From Muribaculaceae bacterium (lineage in GTDB: Bacteria; Bacteroidota; Bacteroidia; Bacteroidales; Muribaculaceae): a DNA stretch of 42,524 bases. Positions 19,953 to 20,152 of this stretch are shown here, in pieces (positions within the stretch are counted from its first letter, which is position 1; each line of letters begins with the position of its first letter). The notes under the pieces are model-generated. The model had not been told where the DNA came from. It worked only from the letters and a program-made list of their open reading frames with translations, and did no database searches. The stretch lies in assembly GCA_022509125.1 (NCBI GenBank), contig JAFLTU010000018.1, forward strand, positions 1 through 42,524. Direction: 5' to 3'. Position numbers and translations under genes: made by a program.

Positions 19953-19965
19953 TGGCCTAGATTTC

Positions 19966-20000
19966 AAAAAAAATCCCGCAATCTTTGGATTTACGGGATT
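19966..20000 (-). terminator. Leader terminator (attenuator) of the pheA operon
   Basis: On the minus strand AATCCCG (20000-19994) pairs with CGGGATT (19978-19972). An inner AATC-CAAA-GATT hairpin lies between them, and a run of eight T follows. It stands 14 bases before the pheA ATG, inside the leader. Upstream bases ACGGGA-a-CGA (20047-20038) can pair with TCG-aa-TCCCGT (20003-19993), which would block the terminator. GTTTC/GAAAC (20059-20055 with 20050-20046) gives the third alternative hairpin. Confidence 0.9.
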
Positions 20001-20030
20001 CGAATTGTTTAACCATCAATAATTCAATAA

Positions 20031-20099
20031 TCACTCATCGTTCCCGTTTCTCTTGAAACCGAAATAAAAGAAAAAGGAATATGAGAAAAAACGAGTCAT
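20031..20099 (-). CDS. Phe/Tyr-rich leader peptide of the pheA operon
   Basis: A 22-codon reading frame starts MTRFFSYSFFFYFGF and ends KRNGNDE before TGA. Seven Phe and two Tyr residues stand within 12 positions. This matches the logic of the E. coli pheA leader peptide, although there is no sequence homology to be expected. It starts 22 bases after the -7 element of the operon promoter. Codons 18-21 cover the antiterminator segment ACGGGAACGA. Stalling at the Phe/Tyr codons would leave that segment free, whereas a ribosome at the stop codon would cover it. Translation is inferred, not shown. Confidence 0.85.
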   Translation of the reverse strand: MTRFFSYSFFFYFGFKRNGNDE

Positions 20100-20120
20100 T
20101 TTGCTTGTTTTTTATTGGTG

Positions 20121-20152
20121 CAAAGGTAATAAAAGCATTTATAATCGGCAAA
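20121..20152 (-). promoter_or_regulatory. Promoter of the pheA-aminotransferase-aroF-tyrA operon
   Basis: TTTG (20149-20152, minus) is followed after exactly 20 bases by TACCTTTG (20121-20128), a full match to the Bacteroidetes promoter pattern. The leader from about 20115 to 19953 is roughly 160 bases and contains the leader peptide and attenuator. The -33 element is 19 bases past the dxs-like stop codon, and no separate terminator is visible between them. Confidence 0.85.

Follow-up and report, generated by a model that had tools for sequence, protein, structure and literature searches.

The stretch of DNA analysed here (42,524 nucleotides; hereafter the window) very likely contains a ribosome-mediated attenuator that senses charged tRNA-Phe and charged tRNA-Tyr and controls a pheA-aminotransferase-aroF/CM-tyrA operon. 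We computed the presence of its elements, their recurrence among relatives, the pairing of segment 2 with its own partner segment 3, the tight spacing of these parts and a folding switch that depends on the position of the ribosome.

All elements named in the original prediction are present, on the minus strand, and the leader region lies between dxs (21925-20171) and pheA. The motif TTTG (20152-20149), which we take to be the -33 element of a Bacteroidetes-type promoter, is separated by 20 nt from the -7 element TACCTTTG (20128-20121), giving the TTTG-N20-TACCTTTG arrangement that had been described (20152-20121). Downstream lies the predicted leader open reading frame (ORF) of 22 codons (20099-20031), running from an ATG at 20099 to a TGA stop codon at 20033-20031, whose peptide, MTRFFSYSFFFYFGFKRNGNDE, has seven Phe and two Tyr among its 22 residues. 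The stop is 78 nt from pheA, and this interval holds the intrinsic terminator, a hairpin at 20000-19972 (-12.4 kcal/mol, loop of 9) with segment 3, AATCCCGTAA (20000-19991), as its first arm and segment 4, TTGCGGGATT (19981-19972), as its 3' arm. A run of eight T (19973-19966), the first two shared with segment 4, extends the structure to 20000-19966, and 13 bases separate it from the pheA ATG (19952). Segment 2, ACGGGA (20047-20042), lies within the last leader codons, as had been claimed, and can pair with TCCCGT (19998-19993) in segment 3, which is thus a possible partner of either segment 2 or segment 4; folding of the window gives this antiterminator, with a nested hairpin, -15.9 kcal/mol. 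A possible 1:2 hairpin, GTTTC-AAGA-GAAAC (20059-20046), is formed by GTTTC at 20059-20055 and GAAAC at 20050-20046. Read from the sequence alone, the region has end-product codons in a short ORF and a terminator between that leader and the first gene. A simple pattern scan for promoters and terminators missed both the leader promoter and the terminator, because it requires sigma-70 hexamers and a loop of at most 8.

Pfam matches agree with the earlier view that the operon covers both the Phe and the Tyr branch. The genes are pheA, encoding prephenate dehydratase (19952-19089; PF00800, E 7.5e-55), a class I/II aminotransferase gene (19092-17914; PF00155, E 1.4e-57), an aroF-type DAHP synthase fused to chorismate mutase (17938-16832; PF00793 and PF01817) and tyrA, encoding prephenate dehydrogenase (16835-16062; PF02153, E 5.8e-9), all on the minus strand.

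In the mechanism that we propose, a ribosome supplied with both charged tRNAs would pass the Phe and Tyr codons, reach the stop codon and cover segment 2, leaving segments 3 and 4 to form the terminator. Were either tRNA in short supply, the ribosome would stall within the aromatic run and leave segment 2 free; this segment would then pair with segment 3 before segment 4 had been made, and transcription would continue into pheA. The stalling of the ribosome would thus presumably be the signal.

The aromatic run exceeds what chance would give. When the 400 nt upstream were shuffled with dinucleotides preserved, none of 2000 shuffles reached nine Phe/Tyr in 12 codons. The related loci, 698 kb in all, contain 11,217 ORFs of 12-60 aa that begin with ATG, each nested start being counted separately; 58 of these have at least eight Phe/Tyr in 12 codons, and all 58 lie upstream of pheA; five ORFs in the same 698 kb have seven, three of them not upstream of pheA. 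These shuffles and this ORF background rule out a chance T-rich ORF.

Runs of Phe and Tyr codons recur upstream of pheA in near and far loci alike, as the original prediction had anticipated. We counted as a leader any stretch upstream of pheA with at least six Phe/Tyr in 12 codons. The near set comprised 111 loci, including that of the window's own genome, of which 95 have distinct upstream sequences; the 13 closest named loci (80-88% PheA identity) are titled Muribaculaceae (nine) or Bacteroidales (four). An aromatic leader was found in 59 of the 95 (59 of 93 when only loci with 200 nt or more of upstream sequence are counted), and all 59 reach seven in 12. The cultured relative Duncaniella muris DSM 103720 (L037) carries a leader of the kind seen in the window. 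We collected 120 further upstream regions, 80 of them from the 139 same-order genomes with a match (one, L155, has too short an upstream sequence, and L112 duplicates a near locus, L020) and 40 hand-picked for spread among the matches listed in a phylum search, 27 from the same class and 13 from other classes. Order and class names are deduced from named relatives, and further lineages are given by rank only. Leaders precede pheA in 75 of the 80 same-order, 26 of the 27 same-class and five of the 13 other-class regions. Among the 119 usable further regions, the criterion was reached in 106, compared with 12 on the opposite strand and 6.3% of shuffles, and the stricter threshold of eight in 12 in 91, compared with 0.3% of shuffles. 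Together these make a leader set of 165 (59 near and 106 far), each with at least six in 12.

The remaining 36 of the 95 near loci are leaderless by this criterion, although 34 of these loci have 200 nt or more of sequence before the gene; L018, with five in 12, is a weak leader counted among those without. Of 80 named loci, 55 have a leader and 25 have none or a weak one, including two (L035 and L058) whose sequence ends too near the gene. Downstream of the leader, the order pheA-aminotransferase-aroF-tyrA is kept in 51 of the 55 named leader loci, and the other four have fewer genes in the fetched stretch. The fetched stretch after aroF showed no tyrA in 10 named leaderless loci, but seven other leaderless loci keep it, and in six tested genomes with neither a leader nor a neighbouring tyrA, tyrA lies on another contig in five and was not found in one; we therefore claim no rule tying loss of the leader to loss of tyrA. 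Several leaderless loci, among them L028, L045 and L048, have pheA behind another gene, which in the latter two has a B12-dependent methionine synthase activation domain at its end. A terminator-like AATCCCG/CGGGATT hairpin precedes pheA in L080, where no aromatic leader was found. L033 and L072 have a short, unrelated ORF region in the 250 nt preceding pheA, readable by eye in L033 as MIIIVLRLFTFVMTGAPA and located upstream of a promoter-like site, TATCTTTG; this region might be a leader of another type. At the cut-offs used, and in genomes that are incomplete, 62 of 120 relatives and 156 of 295 order genomes gave no PheA match, and it is possible that some of these relatives have lost Phe synthesis.

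The codon content of the leaders bears on which amino acids are sensed. We considered that the attenuator might in effect sense Phe only, as E. coli pheL does with its Phe-only leader, the Tyr codons being tolerated neighbours, and the seven-to-two ratio of Phe to Tyr in the window fits this idea. It nevertheless seems unlikely, given that 164 of the 165 leaders have both residues and at least two Tyr, that Tyr dominates some positions (such as the fourth codon from the end of the run, in 49 of 58 near leaders) and that tyrA lies within the operon in those 51 of 55 named leader loci. Under the joint reading, Tyr would be sensed as well as Phe. Among 1588 run codon differences between close pairs of leaders, 482 are synonymous and 360 exchange Phe and Tyr (together 842, a descriptive count from pairs that are not independent), 551 exchange an aromatic for another residue and 195 are of other kinds; the 551 show that single positions in the aromatic run are not fixed. 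Trp occurs in one of 59 near, 14 of 75 order, 12 of 26 class and none of five other-class leaders.

The sequences around the start codon are likewise shared. Of 163 leaders, 125 have a TAnnTTTG motif 8-70 nt ahead of their start codon, compared with 10 of 163 on the opposite strand, and 109 of the 125 have a TTG 14-26 nt further upstream, a part of the pattern counted with no control of its own. Only two of the 165 leaders have a Shine-Dalgarno-like tetramer in front of them; the 15 bases leading up to the start codon, from which the leader ORF is presumably translated, are 49% A.

In the window, the terminator scored above 40 shuffles of its own region (p 0.024). A terminator-like hairpin was found in 164 of 164 leaders by a search so lenient that 90% of shuffles also give some match, while a score above 40 shuffles at p ≤ 0.05 was reached in 150 of the 164. 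This frequency makes it very unlikely that the leader acts mainly at translation, by reinitiation at, or opening of, the pheA start, with a hairpin that is no working terminator. Although reinitiation at short leader genes has been proposed for many phyla including Bacteroidetes (PMC4833913), the peak given for Bacteroidetes in that treatment is at 11-14 bp, as against the 78 nt, with the hairpin and eight T between, that separate the leader stop from pheA here. The attenuation model instead has transcription ending at the predicted terminator. Long-armed hairpins around a AAAGTCCCG/CGGGACTTT core, some with a weak T run, were also seen before pheA in L025, L027, L032, L050 and L113.

The antiterminator pairing of the original prediction stands as ACGGGA with TCCCGT, with comparative support, whereas the longer ACGGGAACGA/TCGAATCCCGT pairing contains a bulge and the window's 2:3 pairing taken alone does not go beyond shuffles (p 0.31); it appears convincing only by comparison. 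Initial searches for segment 2 failed for leaders with a late Tyr or Phe codon and were replaced by best-stem scoring. The scored pairing set also has 165 members (60 near and 105 far). Relative to the leader set, with which it has 163 sequences in common, it includes L018 and L105, each with five in 12, and lacks L061 and L172. Scored against 100 shuffles, the best 2:3 stem reached p ≤ 0.05 in 46 of the 60 near and 84 of the 105 far sequences, 130 of 165 in total (all 130 among the 163 in common), and exceeded 0.05 in 35. When a fixed 27-nt stretch after the run was matched to its own terminator arm in the 105 far sequences, the mean score was 22.1, compared with 15.8 for permuted partners (z 20.8, or 18.8 with the 92 distinct terminator arms); this permutation covers the 2:3 pairing only, and the z values still contain relatedness. 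The own arm scored above the mean of other lineages' arms in 100 of the 105, and the own segment 3 ranked in the top 5% of lineages in only 48. Furthermore, the segments change together across lineages, as had been expected, with coordinated changes in all three in L111 (GAGCAGGA / TCCTGCTC / GAGCAGGA), L156 (GGTGGG / CCCACC / GGTGGG) and L189 (AAGGTGAGGC / GCCTCACCTT / GGGTGAGGC). Across lineages, the comparison thus finds a mutually exclusive antiterminator conserved by compensatory change.

The position of segment 2 follows the aromatic run closely: counted from the first nucleotide of the final aromatic codon, segment 2 starts at a median distance of 14 nt, and within 8-19 nt in 160 of 165 sequences, compared with 27% of 3300 shuffles whose best stem falls there. 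The stop codon comes before or after segment 2, depending on the leader. That the ORF is instead a small functional protein, for instance a membrane protein, with a terminator unrelated to its translation, is scarcely credible even though a hydrophobic aromatic peptide is widespread in the class, for the ends and length of the peptide vary among leaders, Phe and Tyr interchange, and segment 2 changes along with segment 3 and stays at a steady distance from the last aromatic codon, both in leaders where it falls within the ORF and in those where it falls past the stop. A ribosome on the stop codon would hide at least half of segment 2 in 121 of 165 sequences in frame; taking instead the first stop in each of the other two frames gives 49 and 75 of 165.

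We then folded, by partition function, the RNA beyond the ribosome edge, leaving out segment 4 as not yet transcribed. With a ribosome stalled in mid-run, P(2:3) exceeded 0.5 in 163 of 165 sequences, a high value that is due in part to selection, because segment 2 was picked as the best match to segment 3; with the ribosome at the stop codon, P(2:3) fell below 0.5 in 163 of 165. Both hold in 162 of 165, and in the window the values are 0.86 (stalled) and 0.00 (stop). The switch logic that had been likened to E. coli pheA is thus reproduced in the model, where a stall frees segment 2 and a stop masks it, in 162 of 165 by folding and in those 121 of 165 by footprint overlap. With ribosome edges of 9, 11 and 13 nt, both states hold in 121, 129 and 130 of 130 sequences preselected for 2:3 pairing. 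Without a ribosome, P(2:3) exceeded 0.5 in 108 of 165 and P(1:2) in 43, and in the window the two pairings compete (0.32 and 0.55, respectively). The 1:2 pairing of GTTTC with GAAAC, one of the three originally proposed, can therefore form in the window, but with only 43 of 165 above 0.5 the modelled hairpin does not appear to be general. Equilibrium folding also suggests that an untranslated leader may allow readthrough in many relatives.

In the window's own genome, no such leader was found before hom, nor from what we take, judging by the starts of its proteins, to be a leu-type operon to ilvD, in the stretches around these genes. Two ORFs in L232 that passed the codon count were rejected, since both come after hom and are nested in a longer ORF. 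Five consecutive Phe/Tyr codons occur at 71 places in the genome, compared with 142 for a reversed control pattern. Thirty of the 71 were fetched, and three short ORFs in them reach eight in 12; of these, inspection by eye of the 110 nt downstream found a terminator after the pheA leader only. Searches of this genome (88.6% complete) with HisG and Anth_synt_I_N, the anthranilate synthase N-domain, gave no match; the Phe/Tyr operon is nonetheless complete.

We put forward more tentatively, at a little below an even chance, a wider reading in which this regulator goes back to the ancestor of the class (Bacteroidia, as deduced above, or possibly earlier in the phylum), with a joint Phe/Tyr signal (including Trp in some lineages), a single leader without a Shine-Dalgarno sequence and, unlike E. 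coli pheL, readthrough as the default when untranslated. If this were true, transcription and translation would be closely coupled near promoters throughout the class. The attenuator itself, with a Phe/Tyr leader in nearly all of the same-order and same-class pheA regions sampled, yields a testable statement for these gut and environmental bacteria, namely that the ribosome follows RNA polymerase closely enough for control and that one switch serves both aromatic branches. The leader could also offer a codon-readable reporter of Phe/Tyr supply in gut bacteria.

The best-known cases of leader-peptide attenuation come from Proteobacteria and Actinobacteria, and its principle has long been known from E. 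coli. Closer to the window, regulation of this operon has already been hinted at in print. Table 7 of PMC1173090 lists a putative attenuator before pheA > hisHb > aroAIbeta-aroQ > tyrA in Bacteroides thetaiotaomicron, a gene order that is that of the window if hisHb is the aminotransferase; the attenuator comes from a prediction website, and the part of the paper that presents it gives no leader peptide, codons or conservation. Small ORFs reminiscent of leader peptides are described in B. thetaiotaomicron in PMC7366714. In Flavobacterium psychrophilum, PMC9723704 describes clues for leader-peptide attenuation upstream of amino-acid operons and a structured 5' element without an Rfam match upstream of pheA, the same gene in the same phylum; this element is reported for Flavobacteriaceae, in a section that gives no peptide, codons or structure for pheA. 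A literature search covering openly licensed papers returned no description of a class-wide conserved Phe/Tyr leader.

Among Rfam families, RF01859 (Phe_leader) has by name the same function, and against it the leader scores 16.5 bits on its own strand and 18.1 on the opposite one, below the cut-off of 55. A known Rfam element was thereby ruled out; the sole gathering-level match in the window is a tRNA gene (9661-9588, minus strand). The likeness to E. coli pheL lies in a short aromatic leader and a 3:4 terminator before pheA. In pheL, segment 2 begins 10 nt beyond the last Phe codon and 4 nt beyond the first base of the stop codon, and the same folding approach gives P(2:3) of 0.82 for a mid-run stall, 0.67 at the last Phe and 0.0007 at the stop. 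The E. coli leader differs in having Phe only, with tyrA and aroF on the other strand in the fetched region, and in its P(2:3) of about 0 without a ribosome, whereas more than half of the sequences here (the 108 of 165) exceed 0.5; the scarcity of Shine-Dalgarno-like tetramers before the leaders is a further difference. The leader of the window is very probably an attenuator of an already known kind, whose distribution is wide and well supported and whose codon set joins Phe and Tyr.
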